From NCBI GenBank assembly GCA_026400815.1, contig JAPLOI010000014.1:1-51963 (forward strand): 51,963 nt of DNA. Direction: 5' to 3'. The position numbers were made by a program, and so were the translations under genes. Shown in pieces: positions 10,345 through 45,288 of the stretch; the first letter of the stretch is position 1; each line of letters opens with the position of its first letter. This DNA is from Alphaproteobacteria bacterium (GTDB lineage Bacteria; Pseudomonadota; Alphaproteobacteria; Acetobacterales; Acetobacteraceae). The notes beneath the pieces are model-generated. The model ran no database searches. It saw only the letters and a list, made by a program, of their open reading frames with translations, and had not been told where the DNA came from.

Positions 10345-10406
10345 GGCGGTTTGCAGGCGCCTGATTTCGGTCTAACCACGGGGCGCGGCCGGCGGAACCG
10401 GCCAAC

Positions 10407-10452: not shown

Positions 10453-10465
10453 TCTTTGCTTGATC

Positions 10466-10508: not shown

Positions 10509-10526
10509 TCTAGGGAGAAAACCGAC

Positions 10527-10847: not shown

Positions 10848-10855
10848 AGGGAAGG

Positions 10856-11030: not shown

Positions 11031-11037
11031 CCTTGCC

Positions 11038-11430
11038 TTACCGCGGCGGCGGCACTTCCGTGGGGCCGCCGGCGGTTTTCCATGCGGTGTATCCGCCGCC
11101 GACATGGGCGACGTTGTCCAGGCCCATGTCCTGGGCGGTTTTCGCCGCCAGGGCCGAGCGCCAGCCGCTGGCGCAGTAGAAGACGAAGCGCTTGGCCTCC
11201 TGGAAGATCGGCTTGGCGTAGGGGCTGTCGGGGTCGATCCAGAATTCCAGCATGCCGCGCGGGCAGGAGAAGCTGCCGGGGATGCGGCCTTCGCGCTGGA
11301 TCTCGCGCGGGTCGCGCAGGTCCACGAAGACGGTTTCGGTCGTGCCTTGCAGGGGGAGTGCTTGTTCCACCGGGATGGTTTGGATTTCGGCCTCTGCCTC
11401 GGCGAGCAGGGCCTTGTAGCCTTTCTTCAT
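11038..11430 (-). CDS. Rhodanese-domain protein
   Basis: The single rhodanese domain of 130 residues has VFVDLRDPREIQREGRIPGS and an active-site loop FYCASGWRSAL with the catalytic cysteine near residue 86. Such proteins carry sulfane sulfur as a cysteine persulfide in the cytoplasm. No signal peptide is seen. A short helical N-terminal extension (about 30 residues) precedes the domain. The start at 11430 is preceded by GGAGGACACG. It is divergent from the solute-binding protein gene. Confidence 0.88.
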   Translation of the reverse strand: MKKGYKALLAEAEAEIQTIPVEQALPLQGTTETVFVDLRDPREIQREGRIPGSFSCPRGMLEFWIDPDSPYAKPIFQEAKRFVFYCASGWRSALAAKTAQDMGLDNVAHVGGGYTAWKTAGGPTEVPPPR

Positions 11431-11490
11431 CGTGTCCTCCGCGCATTCTGGCGTGAGTCGGCCTTCCCGGTGCGTGCGGTGTCAAGGAGG

Positions 11491-11520
11491 TTGGCAAAGC
11501 TTGTGTCGGCTGCGTAGCAT
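11491..11520 (+). promoter_or_regulatory. Candidate sigma-70-type promoter for the solute-binding protein gene
   Basis: TTGGCA (11491-11496) and TAGCAT (11515-11520) are 18 bases apart and lie 28 bases before the ATG at 11549, in the divergent gap with the rhodanese gene. Assigned by eye. Confidence 0.45.
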
Positions 11521-11548
11521 CGCGGGACATAGAGGTTGGAGGCTCAGG

Positions 11549-13123
11549 ATGAAGCGTCGTGGTTTCCTCGCGGCCGGCGCCGCAACCCTTGCCGCCCCCG
11601 CGGTGCGGGCGCAGGGCGCCAAGGTGATCAAGTTCGCCCCGCAGGCGGACCTGGCGCTGCTGGACCCGCATTTTGCGCCCGCGCTGGTCACGCGCAACCA
11701 CGCCTACCTGGTGTACGACACGCTGTATGGCGTGGACGACGAGGCCAAGCCGCATCCGCAGATGGCGGCGGGGCATGTGGTGGAAGACAACGGCCTGACG
11801 TGGAAGATCACGCTGCGCGATGGGCTGAAATTCCATGACGGCACGCCGGTGCTGGCGCGGGATTGCGTGGCGAGCCTGAAGCGTTGGGCGACGCGCGATG
11901 TGTACGCGATCTCGGTCTGGGGCCAGGTGGAGGAGGTGTCCGCCCCCAGCGACAAGGTGATCCAGTTCAAGCTGAAGCGGCCGTTCCGGCTGCTGGCGGA
12001 CATGCTGGGCAAGCAGAACCCGTTCGCGCCGGTGATCATGCCGGAGCGGCTGGCGAACACGCCGCCGGCGCAGCAGGTGACGGAGGTGATCGGCAGCGGG
12101 CCGTTCCGCTATGTGGCGAACGAGCGCGTGGCGGGCTCGCGCAACGTGTACGAGAAGTGGCCGGGCTATGTGCCGCGGCAGGAGCCTGCGATCGGGTCCA
12201 CCGGCGGCAAGGTGGTGCATGTCGATCGGGTGGAGTGGCACACCATTCCGGACCCCGCGACGGCTGCGGCGGCGCTGCAATCCGGCGAGATCGACTGGTG
12301 GGAGCAGCCGACGGCGGATTTGCTGCCGCCGCTGCGCCGGCGCCCCGGCGTGGTGGTGGAGGTGCTGGACACGCTGGGCTACGTCGCGGTGCTGCGGTTC
12401 AACCACCTGCATCCGCCGTTCAACAACGCGGCCGTGCGGCGCGCGCTGCTGGGGGCGTTCAGCCAGACCGACATGATGACGGCGGTGGCCGGCGAGGACC
12501 GCAAGATGTGGATGGAGGGGGTGGGGTTCTTCACGCCCGCCTCCCCGTTTGCGAACAAGGCGGGGATGGAGGCGCTGACCTCGCCGCGCGACCTGGCGCG
12601 CGTGAAGGCGGCGCTGACGGCGGCGGGCTACACCAATGAGCGGTTCAACATGCTGGTGCCCACCGACCTGCCGGCGATCAACGCGATGAGCGAGGTGGCG
12701 GGCGAGGTGTTCCGCAAGCTGGGCATGAACATGGACTACCTGACGATGGATTGGGGCACGACGGCGGCGCGGCTGAATTCCAAGGCGGCGCCGACAGCGG
12801 GGGGATGGAACCTCAATTGCAATTACGCGCCCGGGTTCTCGCCGATGTCGCCGGCGGCGCACGGCTACCTGCGCGGCACCGGGCAGAATGCGCTGTTCGG
12901 CTGGCCGGAGTCTCCGGGGATCGAGGATCTGCGGGCGAAGTGGATCGATGCGACGGATTTGGCGGAGCAGAAGCGCATCGCCGAGCAGATCCAGCTGCAG
13001 GCGTTCCAGGACGTGCCTTATATTCCGCTGGGCGCGTTCTACTTCGCCAGCGCCTATCGCAGCAGCCTTTCGGGCATGGTGAAGGGCGGGATTCCGATGT
13101 TCTATAATGTGAAGAAGGCCTGA
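11549..13123 (+). CDS. ABC transporter solute-binding protein, family 5 (peptide/nickel type)
   Basis: The 524-residue periplasmic binding protein has a Tat-like leader: MKRRGFLAAGAATLAAPAVR followed by a likely cleavage site at AQG. The SBP_bac_5 fold is indicated by LTWKITLRDGLKFHDGTPV and the C-terminal DVPYIPLGAFYF segment. Ligands in this family range from di/oligopeptides to opines and glutathione; this one cannot be assigned. ATG 11549 is preceded by GGAGG. No permease or ATPase gene is adjacent: a terminator follows and the next gene is a MATE exporter, so it is an orphan that must pair with permeases elsewhere. Confidence 0.92.
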   Translation: MKRRGFLAAGAATLAAPAVRAQGAKVIKFAPQADLALLDPHFAPALVTRNHAYLVYDTLYGVDDEAKPHPQMAAGHVVEDNGLTWKITLRDGLKFHDGTPVLARDCVASLKRWATRDVYAISVWGQVEEVSAPSDKVIQFKLKRPFRLLADMLGKQNPFAPVIMPERLANTPPAQQVTEVIGSGPFRYVANERVAGSRNVYEKWPGYVPRQEPAIGSTGGKVVHVDRVEWHTIPDPATAAAALQSGEIDWWEQPTADLLPPLRRRPGVVVEVLDTLGYVAVLRFNHLHPPFNNAAVRRALLGAFSQTDMMTAVAGEDRKMWMEGVGFFTPASPFANKAGMEALTSPRDLARVKAALTAAGYTNERFNMLVPTDLPAINAMSEVAGEVFRKLGMNMDYLTMDWGTTAARLNSKAAPTAGGWNLNCNYAPGFSPMSPAAHGYLRGTGQNALFGWPESPGIEDLRAKWIDATDLAEQKRIAEQIQLQAFQDVPYIPLGAFYFASAYRSSLSGMVKGGIPMFYNVKKA

Positions 13124-13148
13124 GGCAGTCAGCCGAGGGTGATGAGGC

Positions 13149-13180
13149 GGGGCGGGCAGGTGATGCCCGCCCCTTTTTTT
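13149..13180 (+). terminator. Rho-independent terminator after the solute-binding protein gene
   Basis: GGGGCGGGCA (13149-13158) pairs with TGCCCGCCCC (13164-13173) around GGTGA, followed directly by seven T. This is a classical intrinsic terminator 25 bases after the stop, and it isolates the orphan binding protein from the MATE gene starting at 13191. Confidence 0.92.
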
Positions 13181-13190
13181 GCGAGGCTGC

Positions 13191-14519
13191 ATGCTGGTTG
13201 AAGCCCCTCCCTCTGCCGGCGTGCTGGCGCGGCGCATCGGCGCGCTTGCCGGGCCGACCTTTGCCATTGCGGTGCTGCAATCGGCGGGGCAGCTGATCGA
13301 GACGGTGCTGGCCGCGCGGCAGGGCACGCTGGCGCTGGCCGGCTGGGCGCTGGTGCTGCCGTTCACGCTGCTGATGCAGCAGATGTCGGCCGGCGCGATG
13401 GGGGGCGGGGTGGTTTCGGCCATTGCGCGCAGCCTCGGCGCGGGGCGGCGCGAGGATGCCTCGGCCCTGGTGCTGCATGCGCTGCTGATCGCGATGGGGT
13501 TTGCCGCGACCTACGTGCTGGTGCTGGCGGTGTTCCCGCGGGCGGTGCTGGGCGCGATCGGCGGGGCGGAGGCGGCGGCGGCGGCGGCGGCGTATTCCAT
13601 GTGGCTGTTCGGGGCCGGTGCGGTGCCGGCATGGCTGACCAACACGCTGGCCTCGGTGCTGCGCGGCGGCGGCAAGCATGGGCTGGCGGCGCGGATCACG
13701 CTGTTCAGCGCGCTGGTGCAGCCGCCCTTGGCCTGGGCGCTGATGGAGCCGGCGGGGTTCGGGCTGCCGGGGCTGGGGATGGCGTTCGCGCTCAGCCAGT
13801 GGGGGGCGGCGCTGGCGATGATCGTGGTGGTGGGGCGCGGCGGCGCGGGGTTCCTGCCGACGCTGCGGGTTCGGCCGCAGCGGGCGTTGTTCGGGCGCAT
13901 CCTGTCGGTGGGGGCGGTGGCCTGCGCGATGGCCACGGTGGCGAACACGACGACGATCCTGGTGACGGCCTCCATCGCGGTGCACGGGGCGGCGGCGGTG
14001 GCGGCGTATGGCATCTCGGCGCGGCTGGAGTTCCTGATGGTGCCGCTGGCCTTCGGCGTGGGTTCGGCGCTGACGGCGCTGGTGGGCCGCGCGGTGGGGG
14101 CGGGGGACTGGGTGACGGCGCGGCGCACGGCCTGGACCGGCGGGGTTGCGGCCTTCGTGGTGTGCGCGGCGTTCGGGGCGGCGGTGGGGCTGTTCCCGCA
14201 CGGGTTCGCGCGGTTCTTCACGGCGGATGCCGAGGTGGTGGCGCTGGCGGCGCGGGCGCTGGGCTATGTGGGGCCGGCCTTCGGGGCGTTCGGGCTGGGG
14301 ATGTGCCTGTATTTCGCCAGCATGGGCGCGGGGCGGATGCTGTGGCCGGCCACGGCGGGGCTGACGCGCATTGCCGTGGCGGTGGGCGGCGGGGCGCTGC
14401 TGTCCGGCCCGCTGGGCATGGGGCTGGACGGGCAGTTCCTCGCCGTGGCGCTGGGCATCACGGCGTTTGGCGGGCTGATCGCTTCTTCCGTGCGCCCGGG
14501 TGTTTGGGCGGCACGGTGA
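13191..14519 (+). CDS. MATE-family efflux transporter
   Basis: The 442-residue protein has about twelve membrane helices in two six-helix bundles. The N-terminal half has the MatE pattern (GPTFAIAVLQSAGQLIETVLAARQGTLALAGWAL, then MGGGVVSAIARSLGAGRREDA). The second half repeats it with EFLMVPLAFGVGSALTALVGRAVGAGD. It probably exports cationic or drug-like compounds using a proton or sodium gradient. ATG 13191 is used; an in-frame TTG at 13179 lies in the terminator T-run. It ends 15 bases from the convergent TPR gene, the only convergent junction with no room for a hairpin element. Confidence 0.88.
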   Translation: MLVEAPPSAGVLARRIGALAGPTFAIAVLQSAGQLIETVLAARQGTLALAGWALVLPFTLLMQQMSAGAMGGGVVSAIARSLGAGRREDASALVLHALLIAMGFAATYVLVLAVFPRAVLGAIGGAEAAAAAAAYSMWLFGAGAVPAWLTNTLASVLRGGGKHGLAARITLFSALVQPPLAWALMEPAGFGLPGLGMAFALSQWGAALAMIVVVGRGGAGFLPTLRVRPQRALFGRILSVGAVACAMATVANTTTILVTASIAVHGAAAVAAYGISARLEFLMVPLAFGVGSALTALVGRAVGAGDWVTARRTAWTGGVAAFVVCAAFGAAVGLFPHGFARFFTADAEVVALAARALGYVGPAFGAFGLGMCLYFASMGAGRMLWPATAGLTRIAVAVGGGALLSGPLGMGLDGQFLAVALGITAFGGLIASSVRPGVWAAR

Positions 14520-14534
14520 GGTGATGCCGCGCGG

Positions 14535-16829
14535 CTACTGGCGGGCTGGCGCGGGGGCCGGCGCCGGGGCTGCGGGTGATGGGGCGGCGGGTGGTGGGCG
14601 TTGCGCGCCGGCTGGTGCGGCGGCTGGGGGTGGCGACCCCGGAGGCGCGGCCTGGCCGGGCGGGGCGACGCCGCGCAGGCGGGCGAGGTCGGTGGCGTAG
14701 CGGCGGTTGCCGGGCTGGAGTTCCGCCGCACGGCTGATGGCGCCGATCGCCTCTGCACGCCGGCCGAGCGCGGCCAGCGCGGTGCCGCGGGCATGCAGGG
14801 CGGCGGCGTCGTCTGGCCTGTCTTTCAGCAGGCTGTCGAACAGGGCCAGGGCCTGGTCGTGGCGGCCGAGATCCATGAGAGTCCAGCCGCGCAGGGAGAT
14901 CACCGTGCCATCGCGCGGCGCGATACGCAGGATCTCGTCCACGGCGGCCAGCGCCTCCTCCGGCTTGCGCTGGGCGCGCATGGCGTTGGCACGCGCGAGC
15001 CTGGCGGAGATGCTGGTGGGGTTGCGCGCGACCTCGGCTTCGTAGGCGCGCATCGCTTCATCGATGCGGCCATTGGCGAACAGGGCGTTGCCCAGCGCCT
15101 CCTGCAGGCCGGGCAGGTTGGGGCGCACGTCGTTCACGCGGCTGATGAGGGCCAGCGCCTCTGCCGGGCGGCCGAGGTTGAGCATCACGACGCCTTCGAG
15201 CATCACGGCATCGAAATTGCCTGGGGCGAGGCGGCGCGCTGATTGCAGGTCGGTCAGTGCCTCCCGCGGGCGGCCGAGCTTCATCATGAGATGGGCGGAG
15301 CTGACATGCGACCAGACCGTGGTGCCTTCCTGCACCACAGCCTGCCTCTGCGCCTCCAGCCCGGCGTCGACTCGGCCGAGATCGATCAGGGCCTGGGCCT
15401 TGACGTTCCAGAGCAGCGGGAGGTTGCCCGCCCGGCGCTCCAACGCCTCCAGCGTGGCCAATGCCTCCTCCGCGCGGCCGCTGCGCACCAGGGAGCGTGC
15501 GTAGAGCACGGAGATCTGCAGGGACATTTCCGGCGGCAGGCGCTGTTCCTGCGCCAGGGCGACAAGGCGCGGGCGGACGATGTCTTCCGCATCGCCGCTA
15601 TCGGCGATGTACCAGGCGAAGATGACGGGGTTGAGGCGCTGCCAGACATCCACGGCCACCTGTTGGAACAGCTTGTCGGCCCCGGCCTCGGCGGGGACGG
15701 TGACGGAGGCGAAGCTGCGGCCGCCAGGCGCGCGCAGGCGCAGCTGCAACTCGGTGCCTTGGCGGGTGACATCGCCGGCGATGCGCAGCGAGGGGCGGCC
15801 AAGCAGGTCGCGCAGCAGGCTGGCGAGGCTGCGCAGGGTGAGGCGGTCTGGCGTGACGGTGTAGGCAGGGATGCGGCCGAGATTGGTCTTGCTGGGCCGG
15901 TTGCGGTCGTTTTCGCGGGTTTTCGTGAGCAGGGCGTCGATCGCGTCAATCAGGCGGCTGGCGGCCACTTCCGGTGTAAGGCCGCTGGCGGCGAGGTCGG
16001 CTGGCATCGCGATCGGCAGGATCTCCACCTCCAGCCGTTCGCTTTCGCGCCAGACCGGCCAGGCGGCGGCCGCGAGGATGGCGCCGATGAAGGCGACGAT
16101 GATGGCGAAGCGCAGGGTCCAGCCGATCGAGGCGGCGATCCAGCCGAAGCGGGCGCGTGGGGCGGCGACCATGACGGGGGGCATGGCGGCCACGACGGTG
16201 GCGGGTGCTGCGTAGGCCGGGGCGGCGACAGGGGGGGGCTGGTCGGCTTGGGCGGGGGGCGCGCCTGCGGGCTGGGTGGGGGCCGCGGGGGCGGCGGCCC
16301 CGGGCTGGGAGGGGATCTCTTGGGCGGGGATCTCGCGGGCGGGGCTGGCGGCCTGGGCGTTGGGTGTGGAACGGGCTGGGGGCGCGGTGCGGGGCGGCGG
16401 GGGCGGGCCGTACATGCCGGGGGGCATGACCTCTTCCTCTGGCGCGGCGGGCACGAGGGGTGGCGGCAGGGGGAAGGACGTGCGCATCGCCGGAAGCGGC
16501 ATGGCGGCGGGGATGGCGGGCATGGCTGCCGCGATCGGGGCCGCGGCAGGGGGCGCCACGGGGGCGGCCGTGGTGGGCTGCAGGGGGCGCAGGTCGGCCG
16601 GTACCGGCAGTGGGCGGGGTGGGGCGGCAGGCGGGGGCAGCGGCATGGAGGTGCGCTGGCCGGTGCCGAACAGCTTGGCCCAGAAACCCTTGCGGCGGCG
16701 CCCGCGCTGCGGCGCGTTGGCCTGGAGCATGGCGGCCATCTGCGCTGAATCAGACGCCATCTTCGCCGCCCTGGCCTTGCGGCGGCGGCGTCGCTCCAGA
16801 TAGGCGCCGAGCCACCCGAACATTGCCAT
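14535..16829 (-). CDS. Membrane-anchored tetratricopeptide-repeat protein with proline/alanine-rich N-terminal region
   Basis: The 764-residue product has three parts: a short basic N-terminus (MAMFGWLGAYLERRRRRKAR), a proline/alanine-rich low-complexity stretch (about 60-225), and one membrane helix (about 233-257, IAASIGWTLRFAIIVAFIGA). A C-terminal region follows with many TPR-type helical pairs (for example NALFANGRIDEAMRAYEAEV and ALDSLLKDRPDDAAALHARG-like repeats). It ends in another Pro/Ala tail. By the positive-inside rule the N-terminus is cytoplasmic and the TPRs periplasmic. A role in envelope assembly or secretion is plausible but unproven. ATG 16829 was chosen over a distant upstream start at 16970. 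A 7-bp stem-loop sits 19 bases upstream. Confidence 0.75.
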   Translation of the reverse strand: MAMFGWLGAYLERRRRRKARAAKMASDSAQMAAMLQANAPQRGRRRKGFWAKLFGTGQRTSMPLPPPAAPPRPLPVPADLRPLQPTTAAPVAPPAAAPIAAAMPAIPAAMPLPAMRTSFPLPPPLVPAAPEEEVMPPGMYGPPPPPRTAPPARSTPNAQAASPAREIPAQEIPSQPGAAAPAAPTQPAGAPPAQADQPPPVAAPAYAAPATVVAAMPPVMVAAPRARFGWIAASIGWTLRFAIIVAFIGAILAAAAWPVWRESERLEVEILPIAMPADLAASGLTPEVAASRLIDAIDALLTKTRENDRNRPSKTNLGRIPAYTVTPDRLTLRSLASLLRDLLGRPSLRIAGDVTRQGTELQLRLRAPGGRSFASVTVPAEAGADKLFQQVAVDVWQRLNPVIFAWYIADSGDAEDIVRPRLVALAQEQRLPPEMSLQISVLYARSLVRSGRAEEALATLEALERRAGNLPLLWNVKAQALIDLGRVDAGLEAQRQAVVQEGTTVWSHVSSAHLMMKLGRPREALTDLQSARRLAPGNFDAVMLEGVVMLNLGRPAEALALISRVNDVRPNLPGLQEALGNALFANGRIDEAMRAYEAEVARNPTSISARLARANAMRAQRKPEEALAAVDEILRIAPRDGTVISLRGWTLMDLGRHDQALALFDSLLKDRPDDAAALHARGTALAALGRRAEAIGAISRAAELQPGNRRYATDLARLRGVAPPGQAAPPGSPPPAAAPAGAQRPPPAAPSPAAPAPAPAPARQ

Positions 16830-16847
16830 GACTCCCGATGCCGGTAC

Positions 16848-16866
16848 GTGCCGCAGGTGGCGGCAC
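16848..16866 (-). promoter_or_regulatory. Stem-loop in the 5' leader of the TPR gene
   Basis: GTGCCGC (16848-16854) and GCGGCAC (16860-16866) form a perfect 7-bp stem with a five-base loop. On the minus strand it lies 19 bases upstream of the start codon at 16829, where it could influence ribosome access. No further evidence of regulation. Confidence 0.35.
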
Positions 16867-16993
16867 CGCACCATACGTTGCCTCCACGGCGCGCATGCCC
16901 TTCCGGTCAATGTACCCAGACATTTGCGGGCAATGGGGCGGCCCAGGCCGTTGCGGCCGTTGCAATCCACGCCCGCAGCCGCTGCACGCCGGG

Positions 16994-17007
16994 TTGATCG
17001 AGATCAA
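16994..17007. promoter_or_regulatory. FNR/FixK-type binding box
   Basis: TTGATCGAGATCAA fits the TTGAT-N4-ATCAA consensus of FNR, FnrL and FixK regulators exactly, and is a perfect palindrome. It is centred 171 bases upstream of the TPR gene start (minus strand) and about 41.5 bases upstream of position 17042, the expected start of a rightward transcript that would end at the terminator at 17124-17161. Which side it regulates is not decided. Confidence 0.6.
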
Positions 17008-17057
17008 GGCGGCGGCGGTGGGGCTGTGGGAGACAGGGTGCGTTCGGAGGCGCGGCA

Positions 17058-17108
17058 ATGCCCGCCTCCTGGCCCCCCAGATGGCCGGCCATGGTGCCGG
17101 CCCACTGA
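17058..17108 (+). CDS. Candidate 16-residue small protein or leader peptide
   Basis: ATG at 17058 is preceded by GGAGG (17046-17050) with a 7-base spacer, an ideal Shine-Dalgarno arrangement. The ORF encodes MPASWPPRWPAMVPAH and stops 15 bases before the terminator stem at 17124. Five prolines (one PP pair) and two tryptophans in 16 residues are unusual and could slow ribosomes. The start lies within the first hairpin of the candidate RNA. It is short enough that chance occurrence is possible; conservation in relatives would decide. Confidence 0.3.
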   Translation: MPASWPPRWPAMVPAH

Positions 17109-17123
17109 TCCCCCGGTGGGATC

Positions 17124-17161
17124 GGCCCGGCCGCTTTTCCCCAGCGGCCGGGCCTTTTTTT
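17124..17161 (+). terminator. Strong rho-independent terminator without an upstream annotated gene
   Basis: GGCCCGGCCGCT (17124-17135) pairs with AGCGGCCGGGCC (17143-17154), followed by seven T (17155-17161). It points rightward, yet the only gene upstream (TPR) is transcribed leftward away from it. It therefore must end a transcript starting inside 16830-17120. Confidence 0.9.
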
Positions 17162-17312
17162 CCTCGACGGGCCCTGGCATGGCGTGGCGCGCGCGGGCAC
17201 AGTCGCGTGGCCGAGACGGAGGCCGACGCTGCCGCACCCCCCCGCCTTTTCGCCGCGCTTCGCCGCGCCGCCGCATCCACCGCTGTGGAGCGGGGAAGGC
17301 GTGGGCGCGGAG

Positions 17313-18182
17313 ATGAAGGTGGCCACGCCGCAAGGGCCGGTGGCCGCGGTGCGGCTGCAGCCTGGGGCGGAGGTGATCGGGCCGGGCGGGCAGGCGGTGC
17401 GGGTGGAGGCGGTGCGGCATCTCGCCTTGCCGGCGGCGGCGCATCGGCGGCTGGGGCTGCCGGCGCCGGTGCTGGTGGAGGCGGGCGCGCTCGGCTTCGG
17501 CCAGCCGGCGCAGGACCTGGTGCTGGGCCCGGCGCAGTGCCTGCGGCTGGATGGGGCCTGGGTGCCGGCCTTCCTGCTGGCGGGCCTGCCCGGCGTGCGG
17601 CTGCTGGAGCAGGGCGCGCCGCTGGTGCTGCTGCGGTGTGCGGGTGGCGTGGGGGTGATGGTGTCGGGCGCGATGCTGGCCTCGGCCGGGACGGTGCCGG
17701 CATCCGGGGCGGCGGCGGTGCCGGCGCTGCTGCGGCTGGCGGGTGGCATCAGGCAGATGGACGGGTTCGTGGACCATGCCGACCGGCACGGGGTTGCGGG
17801 CTGGGCGATCGATCCCGCCGCGCGAGACCGGGTGCTGGCGCTGGAGGTGGTGTGCGGGGAGGAGGTTCTGGCCCAGGGCCTGGCAGACCGGCCGCGGCCG
17901 GACCTGGTGCAGGCCGGCACCGGGGGGCGGCTGGGGCGGCATGGCTTCGCGCTGCGTTTCGCGCGCCCGCTGGCGCCGGGGCGGGCCGGGATGCTGTTGG
18001 TGCGCGGGGCGGGCGGCGGGGCGACTCTCTCGGGCAGCCCGCTGCTGGTGGATGCAGCGGTGGCGGAGCCCGGACGGTTCGATGTTGCACTGGCGGGGTT
18101 GGCGGCGGATGCGGGGAGCGTGGACTTTTTGGCCTCGCTGGTGCGGCTTGCACTGCAAGGGAAGAAAGCAGTTCTTTTTTGA
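17313..18182 (+). CDS. Degenerate Hint-domain protein with C-terminal GW-type beta domain
   Basis: The 289-residue product begins MKVATPQGPVAAVRLQPGAEVI and continues LVLGPAQCLRLDGAWVPAFLLAG, the outline of a Hint (hedgehog/intein) domain. The nucleophilic cysteine at the start of the domain and the histidine of the central H motif are missing, so self-processing is unlikely. Residues about 145-260 form a second domain (GFVDHADRHGVAGWAIDPAA, ADRPRPDLVQAG, GRHGFALRFARPLAPGR, GSPLLVDAA) that aligns by eye with the C-terminal half of the protein at 22209-23069. ATG 17313 was chosen; GTG 17301 is in frame. The last residues (KKAVLF) and the TGA stop are encoded by family-I element copy B. Confidence 0.6.
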   Translation: MKVATPQGPVAAVRLQPGAEVIGPGGQAVRVEAVRHLALPAAAHRRLGLPAPVLVEAGALGFGQPAQDLVLGPAQCLRLDGAWVPAFLLAGLPGVRLLEQGAPLVLLRCAGGVGVMVSGAMLASAGTVPASGAAAVPALLRLAGGIRQMDGFVDHADRHGVAGWAIDPAARDRVLALEVVCGEEVLAQGLADRPRPDLVQAGTGGRLGRHGFALRFARPLAPGRAGMLLVRGAGGGATLSGSPLLVDAAVAEPGRFDVALAGLAADAGSVDFLASLVRLALQGKKAVLF

Positions 18183-18279
18183 AAAAAAGAACCAAAAAAC
18201 TTTTATGACTTTGCGCCCGGGCTAGCAACGGCGCAAAGTCATAAAAGTCTTTTTGCTTCTTTTTCTTCAGAAAAAGAAG
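18171..18279. repeat. Family-I three-hairpin element, copy B
   Basis: Hairpin 1: GTTCTTTTTTG/AAAAAAAGAAC (18171-18192). Central stem: 18193-18217 with 18230-18255, 25 pairs with one bulged G, core TTTATGACTTTGCGCC. Hairpin 3: CTTCTTTTTCTT/AGAAAAAGAAG (18256-18279). The A/T-rich arms place T-runs after stems on both strands, so it can act as a bidirectional terminator for the convergent Hint and aminotransferase genes. Hairpins 1 and 3 match copies C and D; the stem core does not. Confidence 0.9.
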
Positions 18280-18288
18280 AGTCTTGCT

Positions 18289-19137
18289 TCAATCGATCTT
18301 CGTGCTTTCCGCCCATTCGAAGTAGCGCTTGCGCGCCAGGGTGCCGACCGGGCCGGTGCCGAGCTGGCGATTTTCGTAGCGGGTGCAGGGCACGATCTTG
18401 CCGTAGTTGCCGCTGGAGAAGATCTCGTCGGCCTCTTCCAGGTCTGCCGCGCTGATGGTGGCTTCGCGGGCTTCGATGCCGGCTTCGTTCAGCAGCTCCA
18501 TGGTGCGCCAGCGGGTGATGCCGGCGAGGAAGGTCTTGTTGTCGCGCGGGGTCAGCGCCACGCCGTTCTTGACCATCCAGAGATTGGCCATGGAGAACTC
18601 GGCGATGTTGTTCCAGGGGTCGCGCATCACGGCGGCTTCGAAGCCGCGGCTTTCGGCCTCGCGGTTGGCGCGCGTGGAGTTGGGGTAGAGGCAGGAGGCC
18701 TTGGCATCGGTCGGCGCCATGTCTGGCGCGGGGCGGCGCAGGGGGGAGAGGGTGGCGGAGAAGCCCTCGTGCTCGCCGGGCAGCGGGGCGTCGTAGATGT
18801 GCAGCACGAAGGCGGTGCGGCCGTTGCCGTGCCGGGCGCCGGCGCCCTGGGTGAAGAACATCGGCTTGATGTAGAGCTCGGCCTCGCGGGGGAAGAGGCG
18901 GATGCCTTCCAGCGCCAGGGCGTGGATTTCCTCGGCGGTCTTGTCCGGGGCGAGGCCCAGGGCATCGGCGGAGCGCAGCACGCGCTGGCAGTGCAGTTCC
19001 AGGTCTGGCGCGCAGCGGCGGAAGGCGCGGGCGCCATCGAACACCATGGAGGCCAGCCAGAAGGAATGGTCGGCCGGGCCGGTGAGCTTGATGTTCTCGT
19101 CGGTCCAGGAACCTTCGTACCAGAACTGGGCAGCCAT
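18289..19137 (-). CDS. Class-IV PLP aminotransferase (branched-chain/D-amino-acid type)
   Basis: The 282-residue fold-type IV aminotransferase has MVFDGARAFRR near residue 33, the Schiff-base lysine in APTDAKASCLYPNS (about 145), and PWNNIAEFSMANLWMV followed by FLAGITRWRTMELL. Members transfer amino groups to 2-oxo acids (IlvE, D-amino-acid transaminase, ADC lyase). The sequence fits the branched-chain-like branch but is clearly diverged from the second copy at 34883-35782, so a specialised substrate is possible. It follows a flavoprotein gene on the same strand after a 72-base gap and is convergent with the Hint gene across element B. Confidence 0.85.
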   Translation of the reverse strand: MAAQFWYEGSWTDENIKLTGPADHSFWLASMVFDGARAFRRCAPDLELHCQRVLRSADALGLAPDKTAEEIHALALEGIRLFPREAELYIKPMFFTQGAGARHGNGRTAFVLHIYDAPLPGEHEGFSATLSPLRRPAPDMAPTDAKASCLYPNSTRANREAESRGFEAAVMRDPWNNIAEFSMANLWMVKNGVALTPRDNKTFLAGITRWRTMELLNEAGIEAREATISAADLEEADEIFSSGNYGKIVPCTRYENRQLGTGPVGTLARKRYFEWAESTKID

Positions 19138-19209
19138 GGGGGAAACTCCGAACGAACAGGGGGCGGGACGGAACGCCGGGCGTGGCGTTGCGTCAAGGGG
19201 GCGGGTGGG

Positions 19210-20625
19210 TCAGGGGGCGCGGGCCAGGGGTGCAGGCAGGGTTTCCGGGGCGAAGAAGGGGGTGGATTCCAGCTCCGGCTCCGCGAAGGCGGCGAGGCGG
19301 GCATGCAGCGCGTCGCGGTCTTCCACGAACAGGGCGCGGGCGATGGCGCTGGCGAGCAGGGTGGCGGCGGTGGAGACGCCGGGGATGTCGCTGGCGATGG
19401 CGCCCATCGAGGCATAGGCGGCGTGGTTGAAGACATGGACGCGGGCGAGGGCGGGGCAGGCGCCGGGGTGCTTTTCCGTGAGTTCGAAGCCGGGGCCGAG
19501 GAAGGGGTATTGGGCGAGCTCCGGGCGCTGCAGCGCGGGCGGGGCCGCGTAGGCGTCTGGCCAGAGGGCGATGTGGGGGGCGAGGGCTGCGAGTTCGGGG
19601 CGGCGGGCCAGGTTCACCTCGAACCCCGTGGCGGCGATCAGGAAATCGGCGCTGGCGGTGCGGCCGGGGAGGTCGAGGGTAACGCCGTGCTCCGCCGGGT
19701 GGGCGGCGAGGATGGGGGTGGCGACATGGAGGCGGAAGCCTTCGTGGCGCAGCACGCGGTGGACGCTTTCGTGCGGCGGGGGGGAGCGTTCGTCGTGCAG
19801 CCAGACCATGAGCTGCCAGCGCTCGGCGGGCGGCAGGGCGGACCAGCCCTCGAAATAGCCGGGGTTGGTGGCGCCGCGGCTTTTGTTCACCTGCGGCAGG
19901 GTGGGGCGGCGGCAATACATGTCCACGGCCGCGGCACCGGCTTCCAGGGCGGTGGCGGCGTTGTCGAAGGCCGCCGCGTTGGCGCCGAGCACGGCGACGC
20001 GCTGGCCGGCGAGGCGGGTGAAGTCGATCGGTTGGGATGCGTGGGCGGCGCGGCTGGGGAACAGGGCGGGGTCCAGGAAGGCTGGCAGGTTCATGCCGCC
20101 GGCGCCGAGGCGGCCGGTGGCGAGGATGACGTGGCGGGCGAAGCGCGGGCCGGCCGGGGTTTCCACGCGCAGGCGGTCGCCATCGGGGAGGATGGCTGTA
20201 ACTGGGGTGTGGTGGCGGATGGGCAGGGCCAGCACGCGCTGGAGCCAGGCGAGGTAGGCCTGCCAGTCGGCGTTGGCGATCTTGTACAGCGCGGCCCAGC
20301 CATCCTCCCCGTGGCGCGCGGTGTACCAGGCGCGGAAGGTGAGCGAGGGGATGCCGAGCGCGATGCCGGGCAGGTGCTTGGGGCTGCGCAGCGTGGCCAT
20401 GCGGGCGGTGGTGGACCACGGCCCCTCCTGGCCCGGGGCTGCTTCGTCCAGCACTTCGATCGCGCGGATGCCCTTGAACAGAAGTGCCGCGGCGGCGGCG
20501 ATGCCGCACATGCCGGCGCCGATGACCAGGGCATCGAGCGTGCCGGGTGGCGTGGCCGCCCATGGGCGCGGGGGAAGGCCGAGGTATTCGAGGTCGCGTG
20601 CGACCTGGGCGTCGTGGGCGTGCAC
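19210..20625 (-). CDS. FAD/NAD(P)-binding oxidoreductase (flavin monooxygenase-like)
   Basis: The 471-residue flavoprotein has an FAD-binding Rossmann motif VIGAGMCGIAAA (about 34-45) and a second dinucleotide motif VAVLGANAAAFDNA (about 210), and an ATGFEVN motif near residue 330 (FLIAATGFEVNLA), as in class-B flavin monooxygenases and related NAD(P)/FAD reductases. The Baeyer-Villiger fingerprint is not obvious. The substrate is unknown. It starts four bases after the M81 peptidase stop, so the two are co-transcribed, probably with the aminotransferase further downstream. The pairing suggests catabolism of an amino-acid-like compound, which is inference only. Confidence 0.75.
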   Translation of the reverse strand: MHAHDAQVARDLEYLGLPPRPWAATPPGTLDALVIGAGMCGIAAAAALLFKGIRAIEVLDEAAPGQEGPWSTTARMATLRSPKHLPGIALGIPSLTFRAWYTARHGEDGWAALYKIANADWQAYLAWLQRVLALPIRHHTPVTAILPDGDRLRVETPAGPRFARHVILATGRLGAGGMNLPAFLDPALFPSRAAHASQPIDFTRLAGQRVAVLGANAAAFDNAATALEAGAAAVDMYCRRPTLPQVNKSRGATNPGYFEGWSALPPAERWQLMVWLHDERSPPPHESVHRVLRHEGFRLHVATPILAAHPAEHGVTLDLPGRTASADFLIAATGFEVNLARRPELAALAPHIALWPDAYAAPPALQRPELAQYPFLGPGFELTEKHPGACPALARVHVFNHAAYASMGAIASDIPGVSTAATLLASAIARALFVEDRDALHARLAAFAEPELESTPFFAPETLPAPLARAP

Positions 20626-31024: not shown

Positions 31025-31438
31025 ATGGCGCGCCACGTCGTCGCCGCCGCCGGTGAAATCCCGCCCGGCGGGCGCAAGCTGGTTACCGTGCGCGGGCGGC
31101 AGATCGGCATCTTCAACCACGGTGGCGAATACTTCGCCCTGCTGAACCGCTGCCCGCACCAGGGCGCCGAACTCTGCAAGGGCACGCTGATCGGCCTGGC
31201 CACCTCGAAGGAGCCCGGCCATTTCGAACTCACCCGCCAGGGGGAGATGCTGAAATGCCCCTGGCATGGCTGGGAATACGATATCCGCACCGGCCAATCC
31301 TGGTGCGACCCCAACGACACCAAGGTGCGAGCCTACCCCGTGACAGTGGAACCCGGAACCACCCTCGTCAAAGGCCCCTACGTAGCGGAGACGTTCCAGG
31401 TGACGGCGGACGAGGCCTACGTGGTGTTGGAGCTCTGA
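31025..31438 (+). CDS. Rieske [2Fe-2S] protein
   Basis: The 137-residue protein carries both Rieske boxes: CPHQG (box 1, C-x-H within NRCPHQGAELCKG) and CPWHGWEYD (box 2, C-x-x-H). It is longer than typical Rieske ferredoxins (about 105 residues) because of a ~20-residue insertion between the boxes (IGLATSKEPGHFELTRQGEM). No oxygenase catalytic domain, signal or membrane helix is present. It could supply electrons to an oxygenase encoded elsewhere, or have a structural or redox role with the amidohydrolases. Last gene of the operon; family-I element copy C follows 10 bases later. Confidence 0.92.
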   Translation: MARHVVAAAGEIPPGGRKLVTVRGRQIGIFNHGGEYFALLNRCPHQGAELCKGTLIGLATSKEPGHFELTRQGEMLKCPWHGWEYDIRTGQSWCDPNDTKVRAYPVTVEPGTTLVKGPYVAETFQVTADEAYVVLEL

Positions 31439-31448: not shown

Positions 31449-31554
31449 CTTCTTTTTGTGAACAAAAAGAAGCAAAAAAACTTCATTCGTTTGATGCGGA
31501 GGGGGCCTCATCAAACGACCATAAGTTTTTTGGTTCTTTTTTTCAAAAAAGAAC
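31449..31554. repeat. Family-I three-hairpin element, copy C (inverted orientation)
   Basis: Relative to copies B and D this one is reversed. It has CTTCTTTTTGT/ACAAAAAGAAG (31449-31472) first, then a central stem (31473-31496 with 31509-31532, core CGTTTGATG/CATCAAACG, with an internal mismatch loop), then GTTCTTTTTT/AAAAAAGAAC (31533-31554). It separates the convergent Rieske and DUF4304-like genes. Confidence 0.88.
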
Positions 31555-31567: not shown

Positions 31568-32191
31568 TCACATGATCGTACCTTCAAACGGTTTAAGCCT
31601 CAGTGCAGCGCGCTGCACCCCGATGCGCGCACGAACCGTCTGCGCGAAAGCCTCCGGCTGCCCGAGCGTCGCGACCAGCGCCGACACATGCGGAGTCACA
31701 CGAGTGTTGCTGATCGATTGGAACATGCGGGCGGCAGCGGGCACCATCCCCGCCAGCCCCGCGGCAACGCCCGCATTCAGTGCCAGCCAGCTGCCGCGCT
31801 GCGGCGCCGGTGTCTCATCCTCATCCCGCAGCAGAACCTCGGCTGTCGCCGCGACCGACCCGAACCGCTCCATGAGCGCCTGAGCTTCGCTGGCGGCGCT
31901 CGCAGACAGGTCCGGCAGACCGGCCCTGAAACCGAGCTCGTCACGGGCTGCCAGAAACGACCCAACGCGCTGCCCATAGTCGAGCGTGACCACGCCCATC
32001 GTTCCCCACAGCCAATGCGCGGCCACGTTGAGATAGCTGCCCCTCTCCCAAGCACTGGGCCGGAATTCCACCACCGTCAGCCACCAGCCATGATCAGCCA
32101 GCCAGGTTCTGCTCCGCCCCATTCGGCGGAACCCTAGCGGCCCGAGCGCCGCCTTCGCCGCCGTGGCGATCAGCGCGTTATGGTCGGTCAC
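31568..32191 (-). CDS. DUF4304-like protein of unknown function
   Basis: The 207-residue soluble protein starts with GPLGFRRMGRSRTWLADHGW and WLTVVEFRPSAWERGSYLNV. The G-F-x-R-x-G-R-x-W-x-x-D-x-x-W-W pattern and GSYLNVAAHWLW are like DUF4304-type proteins. No signal peptide or catalytic motif is recognisable. Codon use is less GC3-biased than the neighbours (for example AAA, TCA, GAG mixtures), so recent acquisition is possible. It lies between element C and the sensor kinase gene, which starts on the same strand 15 bases beyond its start codon. Confidence 0.6.
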   Translation of the reverse strand: MTDHNALIATAAKAALGPLGFRRMGRSRTWLADHGWWLTVVEFRPSAWERGSYLNVAAHWLWGTMGVVTLDYGQRVGSFLAARDELGFRAGLPDLSASAASEAQALMERFGSVAATAEVLLRDEDETPAPQRGSWLALNAGVAAGLAGMVPAAARMFQSISNTRVTPHVSALVATLGQPEAFAQTVRARIGVQRAALRLKPFEGTIM

Positions 32192-42014: not shown

Positions 42015-42734
42015 TCAGCGTGCCCGCGTCTCGTAGGCCTTGATGGCGGAGGCGACGCCCATCTTGCTCATGGCATCCAGCCGGGAGCGGAAGCGGGCGC
42101 AGCCTGGCCGGTCGTTCACGTCCACCAGCCAGAAATCCTGGCCGGAGATGACGCCGAGGCGCACGGCGATCTTGCGGCCGCGCAGTTCGGTGCGGGCCAC
42201 GCGGCCCATGCCGAAGCCTTCCACCTGCCAGACGAGATCGGGCAGGGAGAGCACCTCGTCCTCCGCGGCGCGGTCGGGCACGCGGGCCAGGCCGGCGAGT
42301 TCGGCGGCCAGGGCGGCGGCCTGGAGGTAGGCGTCGCGGTTCTGGATCGCGGAGATCTGGCCGATGCCGTGCGGCACCGCGCCATAGGCGGCGAAAACGG
42401 TGCGCACATCGTCCATGTGGGACAGGTACAGCACGATATCGGTGGCTTCGCAGCGATGCTGGCATTGGGAGGCCGCGGCTTCGCGCACGAAGGCCGTGAC
42501 GTCGCGCAGGCCCAGGCCGGGATGGTCGTTGCTGTAGGTGAAGCGGATGCGCCATTCGGCCCAGGGGCGCTTCCAGCGGAACGTGTCTGTCACCAGCAGG
42601 CCGAGCACCTGGACATGGGCGAGGTCGTGCACCACCGGGGCGCCGCCGAACAGCGCCGCGCCGAGGCCGGGGGCAGGGGCACTCCCGGTGCCGGGCGCTG
42701 GGGGCCCCGCCTTGCGTCGCGTCCAGCTGAACAT
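42015..42734 (-). CDS. Uncharacterised protein
   Basis: The 239-residue soluble protein of unknown family starts MFSWTRRKAGPPAPGTGSAP. It has a short Pro/Ala/Gly-rich N-terminus, then an acidic/aromatic mixed domain with RFTYSNDHPGLGLRDVTAFV, QCQHRCEATDIVLYLSHMDD and a C-terminal GQDFWLVDVNDRPGCARF segment. No signal peptide or membrane helix. The start at 42734 was chosen because the upstream frame (to 42959) is a shadow of the FAD-oxidase gene. Divergent from that gene by 139 bases. I do not recognise the family. Confidence 0.6.
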   Translation of the reverse strand: MFSWTRRKAGPPAPGTGSAPAPGLGAALFGGAPVVHDLAHVQVLGLLVTDTFRWKRPWAEWRIRFTYSNDHPGLGLRDVTAFVREAAASQCQHRCEATDIVLYLSHMDDVRTVFAAYGAVPHGIGQISAIQNRDAYLQAAALAAELAGLARVPDRAAEDEVLSLPDLVWQVEGFGMGRVARTELRGRKIAVRLGVISGQDFWLVDVNDRPGCARFRSRLDAMSKMGVASAIKAYETRAR

Positions 42735-42873
42735 GGCCGGAGCATCGGCTGGGGTGGTCAAGGAAGAGTTAAGGATGCGGATCGGTGCCGAAGGATTCAC
42801 CAGGGCGGCGGGGCGATCTTGCGCGCGGGGCGTGGCCGCGCCATTGCTCGGGGCGAAACAGGAGAGACTGGCC

Positions 42874-44268
42874 ATGTCCGAATCCGTCGCGTCCGGGGCC
42901 GTCGATGCCGTGGTGGAGGCTGCGCGCGGTTTCCTGGGCGAGCGCATCACCACCTCCACCGGGCATCGCGACCATCATTCGCACGGGCAGGACACGCATC
43001 CGCCGGTGATGCCGGATGCGGTGGCGTTCGTGGAGAGCACGGAGGAGGTCTCGAAGCTGCTGGCGCTGTGCCATGCGCACGGGGTGCCGGTGGTGCCCTA
43101 TGGCACCGGGACCTCGCTGGAAGGGCATGTGACGCCGGTGCGCGGCGGGATCACGATTGATCTCTCGCGCATGACGGCGGTGCTGGAGGTGAACGCGGCG
43201 GACATGGATTGCCGGGTGCAGCCGGGCCTGACGCATCGCAGCCTGAACACGCATCTGCGCGACCAGGGCCTGTTCTTCCCGGTGGATCCCGGCGCCGATG
43301 CTTCCCTGGGCGGGATGTGCGCCACGCGCGCCAGCGGCACCAACGCGGTGCGCTACGGCACCATCCGCGAGAACGTGCTGGGCCTGACGGTGGTGCTGGC
43401 CGATGGGCGGGTGATCCGCACCGGGGGGCGGGTGCGCAAATCCGCGGCCGGCTATGACCTTACGCGCCTGTTCATCGGCAGCGAGGGCACGCTGGGTGTG
43501 ATCACCGAAATCCAGCTGCGGCTGCACGGCATTCCAGAGGCGAGCAGCGCCGCGGTGTGCCAGTTCCCGGATTTGGGCAGCGCGGTGGAGACGGTGATCG
43601 CGGTGATGCAGGCCGGCATTCCGGTGGCGCGGATCGAGCTGCTGGACGACGTGCAGATGGGCGCCTGCATCGCCTATTCGAAGCTGGAGGGGCTGACGCC
43701 GGCGCCGACGCTGTTCTTCGAGTTCCACGGCACCGCGGCGGGCGTGAAGGAGCAGGCGGAGCTGGCGGAGGAGATCGCCGGCACTTTCGGTGCGGCGGGG
43801 TTCCAGTGGGCCACCGACCCCGCTGAGCGCGCGCGGCTGTGGCGGGCGCGGCATGATGCCTACTGGGCGGCGCTGGCGCTGAAGCCGGGCCACCAGGGGA
43901 TCGCCACCGATGCGATCGTGCCGATCTCCAGGCTCGCCGAGTGCATCCTGGGGGCGCAGGAGGATATCCGCGCCTCTGGCCTCACGGCGCCGATCGTGGG
44001 GCATGTGGGGGATGGCAATTTCCACACCGTGATCCTGGTGCCGCCGGAAGCCGGCGGGCTCGACCAGGCATGGGAGCTGGACAAGAAAATCGTGGCCCGC
44101 GCCCTGGCCCTCGGTGGCTCGTGCAGCGGGGAGCACGGGGTGGGGATCGGCAAGCGCGAGTTCCTGGAGGCCGAAGTGGGGGCCGAGGCGCTGGCGGTGA
44201 TGCGCAGCGTGAAGGCTTCGCTGGATCCGAAGGGGATTCTGAATCCGGGGAAGATTTTTCTCAACTGA
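42874..44268 (+). CDS. FAD-linked oxidase (D-lactate dehydrogenase / GlcD type)
   Basis: The 464-residue flavoenzyme has a PCMH FAD-binding domain: VVPYGTGTSLEGHVTPVRGG, MTAVLEVNAADMDCRVQPGL, GADASLGGMCATRASGTNAV, and KSAAGYDLTRLFIGSEGTLG. The GlcD-type C-domain has VGHVGDGNFHTVI and CSGEHGVGIGKREF, whose histidines typify the D-2-hydroxyacid dehydrogenase (cytochrome) group. It probably oxidises D-lactate or a related 2-hydroxyacid at the membrane. ATG 42874 follows AGGAGAG. It ends in the normal C-terminal DPKGILNPGKIF. Element copy D begins 8 bases after the stop. Confidence 0.93.
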   Translation: MSESVASGAVDAVVEAARGFLGERITTSTGHRDHHSHGQDTHPPVMPDAVAFVESTEEVSKLLALCHAHGVPVVPYGTGTSLEGHVTPVRGGITIDLSRMTAVLEVNAADMDCRVQPGLTHRSLNTHLRDQGLFFPVDPGADASLGGMCATRASGTNAVRYGTIRENVLGLTVVLADGRVIRTGGRVRKSAAGYDLTRLFIGSEGTLGVITEIQLRLHGIPEASSAAVCQFPDLGSAVETVIAVMQAGIPVARIELLDDVQMGACIAYSKLEGLTPAPTLFFEFHGTAAGVKEQAELAEEIAGTFGAAGFQWATDPAERARLWRARHDAYWAALALKPGHQGIATDAIVPISRLAECILGAQEDIRASGLTAPIVGHVGDGNFHTVILVPPEAGGLDQAWELDKKIVARALALGGSCSGEHGVGIGKREFLEAEVGAEALAVMRSVKASLDPKGILNPGKIFLN

Positions 44269-44276: not shown

Positions 44277-44392
44277 GTTCTTTTTTGAAAAAAAGAACCA
44301 AAAAACTTTCATGACTGGTGCGCGTGCTAGATGGTCTGGCACGCGCGCCAGTCAGAAAAGTCTTTTTGCTTCTTTTTCTTCAGAAAAAGAAG
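44277..44392. repeat. Family-I three-hairpin element, copy D
   Basis: Hairpin 1: GTTCTTTTTTG/AAAAAAAGAAC (44277-44298). Central stem: 44299-44327 with 44339-44368, core GACTGGTGCGCGTGC / GCACGCGCGCCAGTC with one G-T pair. Hairpin 3: CTTCTTTTTCTT/AGAAAAAGAAG (44369-44392), identical to copy B. The central core shares no sequence with copies A-C. It lies between convergent FAD-oxidase and dienelactone hydrolase genes. Confidence 0.92.
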
Positions 44393-44396: not shown

Positions 44397-45065
44397 TTAC
44401 TTGCTTAGGTTCTGCTTGAAAAAGCTGAAGGTGCGTTCATGCGCCAGCGCCGCATCGGGCGCGGAGAAGCTGGCGCGTTCGTCGCAGCCGAAGCCGTGCT
44501 GGGCGCCTTGGTAGACATAGACTTCGATGCCGGGCTGGGCGGCGCGGATGGCTTCCACGTCGGTCAGTGGGATGCCGGTATCCTTCTCGCCGAAGTGGAG
44601 TTGCACGGGGCACATTGGGCGCTCGGTGCGAGTGCCGGCGACGCCGCCGCCGTACCAGCCGCTGGCGGCGGCGAAGCGGGTGGAGCGGGTGGCGCCCCAC
44701 CAGGCCACGGTGCCGCCGAAGCAGTAGCCGGTGATGCCCAGGGTGCGGCTGCCCAGCGCATGGGCGGCGGCGTCCACGTCCAGCATCACCTCGTGGTTGT
44801 CCAGCCGGCCGCGCAGCGCGATGCCTTGCTTGACGTCTTCCGGGGTGTAGCCGAGTTCGGCCTGGGGTTCGGTGCGGTCGAACAGGGCGGGGGCGATGAC
44901 GGCGTAGCCCTGGGCGGCGATCTTCTCGCACATGTTGCGGATGTGGTGGTTCACGCCGAAGATTTCCTGGATGACGACGATGCCGGCGCGGGCGTTGTCG
45001 GGCCCGGTGCGCCAGGCGGAGAGGCGATGGCCGTCTTGCGCGGTGAGAGTGATGGTCTGGCCCAT
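44397..45065 (-). CDS. Dienelactone hydrolase family protein
   Basis: The 222-residue alpha/beta-hydrolase has the dienelactone hydrolase triad: Cys115 in GYCFGGTV, Asp162 in FGEKDTGIP and His190 in YQGAQHGFG, with the family glutamate in VVIQEIFGVNHHI (about 34). These enzymes hydrolyse carboxymethylenebutenolide or similar lactones and esters in aromatic catabolism. No other chlorocatechol-pathway genes are nearby, so the substrate is open. ATG 45065 was chosen at the family start. It is divergent from the DUF4169 gene by 37 bases. Confidence 0.92.
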   Translation of the reverse strand: MGQTITLTAQDGHRLSAWRTGPDNARAGIVVIQEIFGVNHHIRNMCEKIAAQGYAVIAPALFDRTEPQAELGYTPEDVKQGIALRGRLDNHEVMLDVDAAAHALGSRTLGITGYCFGGTVAWWGATRSTRFAAASGWYGGGVAGTRTERPMCPVQLHFGEKDTGIPLTDVEAIRAAQPGIEVYVYQGAQHGFGCDERASFSAPDAALAHERTFSFFKQNLSK

Positions 45066-45102
45066 GTTGATTTCCCCTTGGTGTGCGGGCCAGGATGGGG
45101 GG

Positions 45103-45288
45103 ATGGCTGAGATCGTCAACCTCCGGCGGGTGAAGAAGCAGCGCGCGGCGGCCGAGCAGGCGGCCGAGGCGCAGCGCAACCGGGTGCTGCACGGGCGCAC
45201 CAAGGGGGAGAAGCTGCGCGACCGGCTGGAAGCGGAACGCGCCGCCCGCGGGGCGGACGGCGCGCGGCTGGAGCCGGGGAAGGATTAG
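45103..45288 (+). CDS. DUF4169 family small basic protein
   Basis: The 61-residue, highly charged helical protein starts MAEIVNLRRVKKQRAAAEQA and has VLHGRTKGEKLRDRLEAERA, the typical alphaproteobacterial DUF4169 sequence. Function is unknown. Preceded by GGATGGGGGG. It stops at 45288, sharing four bases (45285-45288) with the 3' end of the convergent PEP-CTERM gene, so there is no room for an intergenic terminator. Confidence 0.9.
   Translation: MAEIVNLRRVKKQRAAAEQAAEAQRNRVLHGRTKGEKLRDRLEAERAARGADGARLEPGKD

Follow-up and report, generated by a model that had tools for sequence, protein, structure and literature searches.

The window, i.e. the whole stretch of 51,963 nucleotides analysed here (Acetobacteraceae assembly GCA_026400815.1, contig JAPLOI010000014.1), carries three intact copies of a repeat, at 18171-18279, 31449-31554 (inverted) and 44277-44392, each of which consists of an arm, a core and a second arm (Table 1). 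An arm begins on its outer side with a small hairpin, which is followed inward by a C, an A-tract and CTT. The main arm types are A (GTTCTTTTTTGAAAAAAAGAACCAAAAAACTT), B (CTTCTTTTTCTGAAGAAAAAGAAGCAAAAAGACTT), a form of B with one extra T per strand, and C, which has the loop GTGAAC. At the left end of the 18171 element, repeat and gene overlap: the upstream Hint-domain gene has its stop codon within the hairpin of the A arm (18171-18182), and its last codons are formed by the repeat. The ORF at 31568-32191, beside the 31449 element, has no relative in the genus and no Pfam match and, therefore, this locus has no ortholog series; the nearest called gene on this side of the element ends at 32207.

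Table 1. Repeat elements of the window, their parts and the adjoining genes
Feature	Position	Strand	Remark
Remnant of lost left arm	142-148	+	
Core hairpin kept in the one-arm remnant	149-183		
Sole arm left, of the long B type (six T per strand)	187-224	-	4 nt away from the EamA stop codon on the - strand
A arm of 18171 element	18171-18202	+	provides the TGA stop for the gene called on the + strand at 17301-18182
Core of 18171 element	18203-18244		near-identical in G001, wholly different in G007
B arm of 18171 element	18245-18279	-	
Class IV aminotransferase	18289-19137	-	convergent neighbour of 18171 element; orthologs found
Rieske domain protein	31025-31438	+	upstream neighbour of 31449 element
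C arm of 31449 element (CTTC...GAAG, loop GTGAAC)	31449-31483	+	copy inverted relative to the other two
Core of 31449 element	31484-31522		folding z -3.5
A arm of 31449 element	31523-31554	-	
FAD-linked oxidase	42538-44268	+	convergent neighbour of 44277 element
A arm of 44277 element (GTTC...GAAC hairpin, A-tract, CTT)	44277-44308	+	8 nt past the stop of the + strand gene
Variable self-complementary core of 44277 element	44309-44357		folding z -9.2; orthologs
B arm of 44277 element (CTTC...GAAG hairpin, read inward from the right)	44358-44392	-	4 nt away from the stop codon of the gene on the - strand
Dienelactone hydrolase family	44397-45203	-	convergent neighbour of 44277 element; orthologs found

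An earlier note, made from the letters of the window, had described the three intact copies, and its coordinates, hairpins and flanks all hold. It had also listed a broken copy at 153-224; a remnant is indeed present (approximately 142-224), and it is the left arm that has been lost, while the core hairpin and the right arm are kept. Folding of the three intact elements is far more stable than that of dinucleotide shuffles on either strand (z -6.4 to -9.6); the + strand of the remnant has a z of -3.8. The three-hairpin layout proposed in the earlier note is the computed minimum only in the A-C copy at 31449 among the three intact copies. For the two A-B copies (18171 and 44277), the proposal does not hold, because the two arms are near-complementary and the computed minimum is one long hairpin.

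Copy number and placement at gene ends

The 5.11-Mb genome to which the window belongs has 256 matches to the 32-mer of the left half of the element with at most three mismatches, while a reversed control has 0, which excludes chance as the origin of the repeat family; the further copies that the earlier note predicted thus exist. Counts of 179 to 350 are obtained for all nine genomes of the genus, among them the window's own. Beyond the genus, the 32-mer matches in 2 of 15 other genomes of the same family (22 and 77 matches) and in 0 of 16 genomes of other families. When a looser pattern of the arm was searched for by exact match, 45 of 150 genomes of the family gave hits, up to 843 per genome and zero in the reversed control; the remaining 105 have no match, and pattern-negative genera may carry variants. 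Copy number is uneven even within a genus (87 and 1 in g58, 14 and 431 in g65, 66 and 0 in g72). In a draw at the level of the order, consisting of 150 genomes that all belong to the same family and are partly the same ones, 35 genomes match the arm pattern. At least 116 stretches match in the exact-pattern scan, and the matches listed include Gluconacetobacter, Asaia, Roseomonas, Pseudoroseomonas, Novacetimonas, Endobacter, Rhodovarius and an Acidiphilium MAG. One of these Acetobacteraceae stretches (L047) has the same core as one copy in G007, a genome of the window's genus. The one-sided strand order of arm matches in two genomes (G085 and G264) was taken as a listing effect; their total counts are balanced.

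Some matches have a different setting. A plasmid search gave near-full matches on two Pseudoroseomonas cervicalis plasmids and one short match on an Enterococcus plasmid, and a phage search gave one short Microviridae match (MG945182.1), i.e. a 39-base A arm match of 95% identity between annotated features. The exact B-arm hairpin is found in 15 stretches from 13 IMG/VR contigs, with copies in or beside sequences called viral. In addition, five MAG stretches titled Oscillospiraceae or Clostridia (L057, L064, L102, L115 and L127, the last of which was assigned to this set by its low G+C content and likeness to L102 alone) have an exact 33-mer A-arm match without the rest of the element.

Three observations go beyond the earlier note, i.e. 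the placement at stop codons, an orientation bias in co-directional gene pairs and the unlike arms. Placement was analysed in 0.85 Mb of the window's genome, comprising four large contig stretches and the window, in which genes were called with a purpose-built hexamer model rather than a standard gene finder (coding fraction 0.87-0.91). A scan of 0.95 Mb with an arm profile trained on this genome (G000), which misses very divergent arms, gave 173 hits with a score of at least 12, while no reversed-control hit reached 10; the cut-off for the element table was an arm score of at least 7, at which the reversed control gave 2 hits. In the 0.85 Mb, the 39 two-arm elements lie in 17 convergent, 21 co-directional and 1 divergent gaps against a background of 109 convergent, 552 co-directional and 111 divergent adjacent gene pairs. 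Weighted by intergenic length, the single divergent element among 39 corresponds to p=4.9e-5 and the 17 convergent elements to p=2.2e-4. Of the gaps of 60 bp or more, 25 of 54 convergent ones and 32 of 220 co-directional ones contain an element or a single arm, as does 1 of 100 divergent ones. The distance from stop codon to arm is 2-16 nt in 47 of 55 cases, and in two called genes, including that at the window copy 18171, the arm itself contains the stop codon. On a Pseudoroseomonas plasmid with independent annotation, the one plasmid examined, a stop codon follows 5 nt after the end of a copy. At the 21 co-directional elements, the upstream stop is faced by the GTTC arm in 16 cases, by the CTTC arm in 3 and by an arm of other type or untyped in 2 (binomial p=0.004).

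The same placement is observed in other genera, where 93 elements are divided into 44 convergent, 44 co-directional and 5 divergent cases and the stop distance is 2-20 nt in 100 of 132 cases; these numbers derive from 111 of 116 loci, five low-G+C or Clostridia/Oscillospiraceae stretches being excluded, and 14 of 107 elements had no called neighbour.

Unlike arms and variable cores

In the window's genome, all 67 typed elements combine one GTTC arm with one CTTC arm, and 6 of the 73 elements are untyped. The arms are also unlike in 97 of 102 typed elements of other genera (5 of 107 untyped), at loci that were fetched by the A-arm pattern, and the two hairpins are identical in only one element. 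Among 518 arm hairpins, many of which are related copies, 298 are GTTC/GAAC, 198 are CTTC/GAAG, 4 are other complementary pairs and 18 are mismatched, and there are no clean crosses of the type GTTC/GAAG or CTTC/GAAC. The rule is not universal because four of the six arm pairs in the match list of one genome (G119), counted by eye, have CTTC on both sides with different loops. With the core of the 44277 element, the long hairpin is computed to be favoured over three local hairpins by 2.1 kcal/mol if the arms are unlike and by 21-22 kcal/mol if they are equal.

To compare copies at matched loci, the same gene end was sought for 40 loci in four genomes (G001, G007, G004 and G002). In the resulting 110 orthologous places, which omit weak or doubled matches and most of G002, two arms are present in 84 (30 of 30 in G007), one arm in 11 and none in 15. 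In the 84 two-arm pairs, the arms are 93-99.6% identical and the cores 69-86%, while third codon positions beside the elements (48 pieces) are 83-91% identical. Thus, relative to third positions, the rate of change is somewhat higher in cores and much lower in arms. A arms without length change have 0 substitutions in 1,340 site-pairs over both hairpin strands, of which 670 belong to the outer strand, and B arms have 17 substitutions in 1,242 site-pairs over the two strands; the count covers recognisable arms, with 17 A and 9 B pairs omitted because of a length change or lack of a match and 6 of 168 arms assigned to neither type. Single arms score like the arms of whole elements (median 35.1 vs 35.8), and a significant hairpin adjoins the single arm in only 10 of 25 cases.

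In 12 of the 15 arm-less places, comparison revealed no junction at the arm edges, and in the seven with both flanks found, homology ends 10-28 nt before the element and resumes 10-43 nt after it, as would be left by a ragged deletion.

The cores are 1 to 70 nt long. According to the earlier note, they are hypervariable, differ entirely and are always paired, and each of these statements is too strong. When 38 unbiased cores were compared with 200 dinucleotide shuffles each, 28 folded better than 95% of the shuffles (mean z -3.7) and 10 did not, and one of the 39 unbiased elements has a core of 1 nt. Moreover, 47 of 73 cores share a 13-mer word with another copy (random genomic segments, mean 2.65), i.e. 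cores form related groups. These groups probably explain why the own partner of a half-core is within the best 5% in just 15 of 38 cases, even though the mean pairing energy is -23.0 kcal/mol for own halves vs -14.5 kcal/mol for swapped halves. The idea that cores are copies of an independent repeat was dismissed: the 15 longest core words found outside elements are 15-18 nt long, 13 of them are in coding sequence, and none points to a free-standing source.

The earlier note also suggested selection on structure. For the cores, this suggestion has moderate support from the pairing of the two halves and from the orthologous cores, in which one-sided changes that break a pair number 94 vs 163 expected with random placement. 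Double compensatory changes, by contrast, are not enriched (10 vs 11.6 expected) and, therefore, were not used as proof of structure selection. For these counts, 17 of the 84 ortholog pairs were excluded as short, weakly folding or under 65% identical. Thus, stems are held mainly by avoidance of breaking changes. The proposed copying mechanism that writes new palindromes is not needed at most loci, because 75 of 84 ortholog pairs keep a core identity of approximately 65% or more; of the nine pairs below this value, two belong to a core-less locus. Cores mostly drift and wholesale replacement is rare, although single-locus replacements do exist. For instance, the core of the 18171 element is replaced in G007 and its B arm is longer, while the adjoining protein is still 99% identical; at locus p34, four species have three different cores; and at the 44277 locus, G008 has the element in the opposite orientation. 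At locus p0, four species retain a copy whose core is just 1 nt long and whose arms still form a hairpin followed by T-runs.

Interpretation as a probable bidirectional terminator

Based on these data, we suggest that this dispersed, non-coding repeat family functions as a bidirectional intrinsic (Rho-independent) terminator placed just past stop codons, in which unlike arms would keep the two tails apart; judging from sequence, we assign this model a probability of roughly 0.6. In this model, the repeat would act mainly in convergent and co-directional gaps. RNA synthesis arriving from either side would allow the core to form its stem-loop, after which the facing arm would give rise to a long U-rich tail (AAGTYTTTTTGSTTCTTTTT). 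Because the tail in one direction is the leader in the other, each arm also carries the complement of its own U-rich part and can fold into a small local hairpin, such that no pairing with the A-tract or the opposite tail would be required. With two different arm types (GTTC/GAAC versus CTTC/GAAG), most of the advantage that equal arms would confer on the long hairpin is lost. The core would need only to pair and could thus drift, while the arms would need their sequence and would thus be frozen.

Several lines of evidence are consistent with this model. A stem-loop followed by a T-tract is present on both strands, with T-runs in both arms and significant folding in most cores, and both in the window's genome and in other genera the elements are at the 3' ends of genes and avoid divergent gaps. 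The orientation bias, the deficit of pair-breaking changes, the conservation of arms above that of third codon positions, the unlike arms and the retained p0 copy point in the same direction. An A-tract, a stem and a T-tract on both strands, at gene ends and away from divergent gaps, make up the layout of a bidirectional intrinsic terminator. PMC12207403 names upstream A-tracts as a characteristic of bidirectional terminators, and PMC1852404 gives the rationale for terminators of this kind between convergent genes. The repeat shares with them a GC-rich stem between A-rich and T-rich tracts and the enrichment between convergent genes. The repeat described here differs from these in having hundreds of copies with near-identical tails, small hairpins made with their own complement, and two tail types. 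As for the unlike arms, they may be plain descent from one A-B ancestor; that copies with a longer B arm or a C arm stay unlike leans towards selection for unlike arms, without being proof.

Other observations argue against a plain terminator. A U-tail does not require the outer strand of the small hairpin, and yet this strand is frozen in A arms; 10 of 38 cores are no better than shuffles; compensatory changes are not enriched; and single arms are kept intact. Moreover, since 105 of 150 genomes in the family are without the arm pattern, hosts do not need the repeat for termination in general. A simple consensus terminator scan of window positions 1-20000 gave 9 sites vs 8.8 in shuffles, i.e. 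no excess; it called only the small B hairpin at 18256, missed the cores at 18171 and 149 and is uninformative. The conserved outer hairpin strand and the single arms leave room for a protein or a mobilising enzyme that acts on the arm. On balance, the repeat is real, high-copy and patchily distributed, and it is most likely a self-insulated bidirectional terminator.

As such, one natural element present in hundreds of copies per genome would separate the sequence-bound part of a terminator from the part that only has to pair, and the intact, one-arm, core-less and replaced-core copies at matched loci would represent a natural series on what a two-way terminator needs. The unlike-arm rule also offers a simple, testable idea as to how terminators built from inverted repeats avoid becoming one long palindrome, and since genomes of a single family range from 0 to 843 arm matches, one may also ask by what route a terminator is able to spread.

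Alternative explanations and related repeat families

A possible, if rather doubtful, reading is that the family is a clade-specific, self-spreading terminator repeat. A putative protein would recognise the unlike, self-insulated arms as hairpins and move or maintain the repeat beside stop codons, and the host would have adopted hundreds of copies as two-way insulators; unlike arms would be kept since equal arms would create a long, perfect palindrome, prone to misfolding in the RNA and to instability in the DNA.

It is unlikely that the family is primarily a non-autonomous mobile repeat similar to MITEs or BIMEs, inserted specifically at gene ends or surviving only there, in which the arms would be hairpins for a trans-acting transposase, the core a passenger and terminator activity a by-product. 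The patchy distribution with matches in 45 of 150 genomes and large differences inside one genus, the conservation of both small-hairpin strands, the intact single arms, the fixed A-B layout with its orientation bias and the copies on the two P. cervicalis plasmids would all be explained in this way. However, positions are largely common between species (84 two-arm, 11 one-arm and 15 arm-less of 110 places), and the 12 arm-less comparisons lack a junction at the arm edges.

MITEs are short, non-coding repeats with inverted terminal repeats and a patchy distribution, and their insertion is precise and duplicates the target site. The elements described here are likewise short, non-coding and patchily distributed, with inverted ends. 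However, at 14 sites with arm-less or reduced orthologous loci (the 12 arm-less loci above, one with the small hairpin alone and several one-arm loci), there is no clean empty site and no junction at both arm edges, and the ends are unlike in 67 of 67 typed elements. REP/BIME repeats with their RAYT proteins are similar in that there are more than 100 copies, inverted pairs of small palindromes and variable spacers (PMC2817692). In that class, a GTAG-type word stands at the foot of the palindrome, and the RAYT gene lies between two inverted copies of the repeat. However, in 39 copies read by eye (one left flank missing), no GTAG-type word lies beside the arms, the flanks being AAGGAAGC-like.

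Membership in the RAYT/REP class was rejected. The sole PF01797 match of the window's genome adjoins GTAG-type repeats; this RAYT-like gene is flanked by GTAGCCCGCATC..GATGCGGGC rather than by arms, and no arm with a score of at least 12 is present in 4.5 kb. Across genomes, PF01797 is found in 17 of 150, and the richest carriers of the arm (G003, G008, G103 and G150) lack it; arms are present in 10 of the 17 genomes with a match vs 35 of 133 without, a comparison that takes two 150-genome draws as the same. The RAYT-like gene with its inverted GTAGCCCGCATC..GATGCGGGC repeats (contig C53, approximately 1881-2526 of stretch L353) constitutes an REP system of its own within this genome.

Uptake-signal (USS/DUS) terminators, which occur in Neisseria and Pasteurellaceae, share with the elements a high-copy conserved word, its arrangement as an inverted pair and the location at convergent gene ends (PMC1852404). 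In those terminators, the conserved word builds the stem, whereas the present family has its conserved words in the tails and a variable stem. Because the core varies, the family was not assigned to this class. The earlier note's impression that no element with such a layout has been described is in line with our searches: the window has 0 Rfam covariance matches at the gathering score, no description of the element was found in the open-licence literature searched, including the available text of PMC2267715 and PMC4686929, and the four exact hairpin strings are absent from that literature.

We consider it improbable that a DNA- or RNA-binding protein (a nucleoid protein, a gyrase-like supercoil sink between convergent genes or a protector of RNA 3' ends) binds to the arms and that the core only sets the spacing. 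Arms that are near-frozen on both strands, enriched between convergent genes and kept with a 1-nt core (locus p0) or as single arms would agree with such a function, but a core length of 1 to 70 nt misfits a fixed spacing and the cores pair above chance. HU/IHF (PF00216), the one candidate family examined, is present in 150 of 150 genomes and, hence, uninformative.

Finally, continual rewriting of cores as new palindromes, by template switching at quasi-palindromes or gene conversion between copies, is very improbable: the core replacements at 18171 and p34, the words shared between 47 of 73 cores and the inversion at the 44277 locus fit with it, but gradual drift dominates in the 75 of 84 ortholog pairs with conserved cores, and the 10 of 38 cores that pair no better than shuffles have been left unrepaired.

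Other palindromic repeats are found close to the elements. A different dispersed palindrome, GGCGGAACCGCTTCGCGTTCCGCC, has 7 pattern matches on both strands in the 0.85 Mb, in which a palindrome may count twice, and adjoins single arms on two contigs of the window's genome (C42 and C18, e.g. C42:45656 and C18:165929). At C55:97687-98451 in this genome (stretch L198), two intact arms located 11 and 13 nt from convergent stops flank approximately 695 bp that hold other palindromic repeats, as if the core were their landing place.
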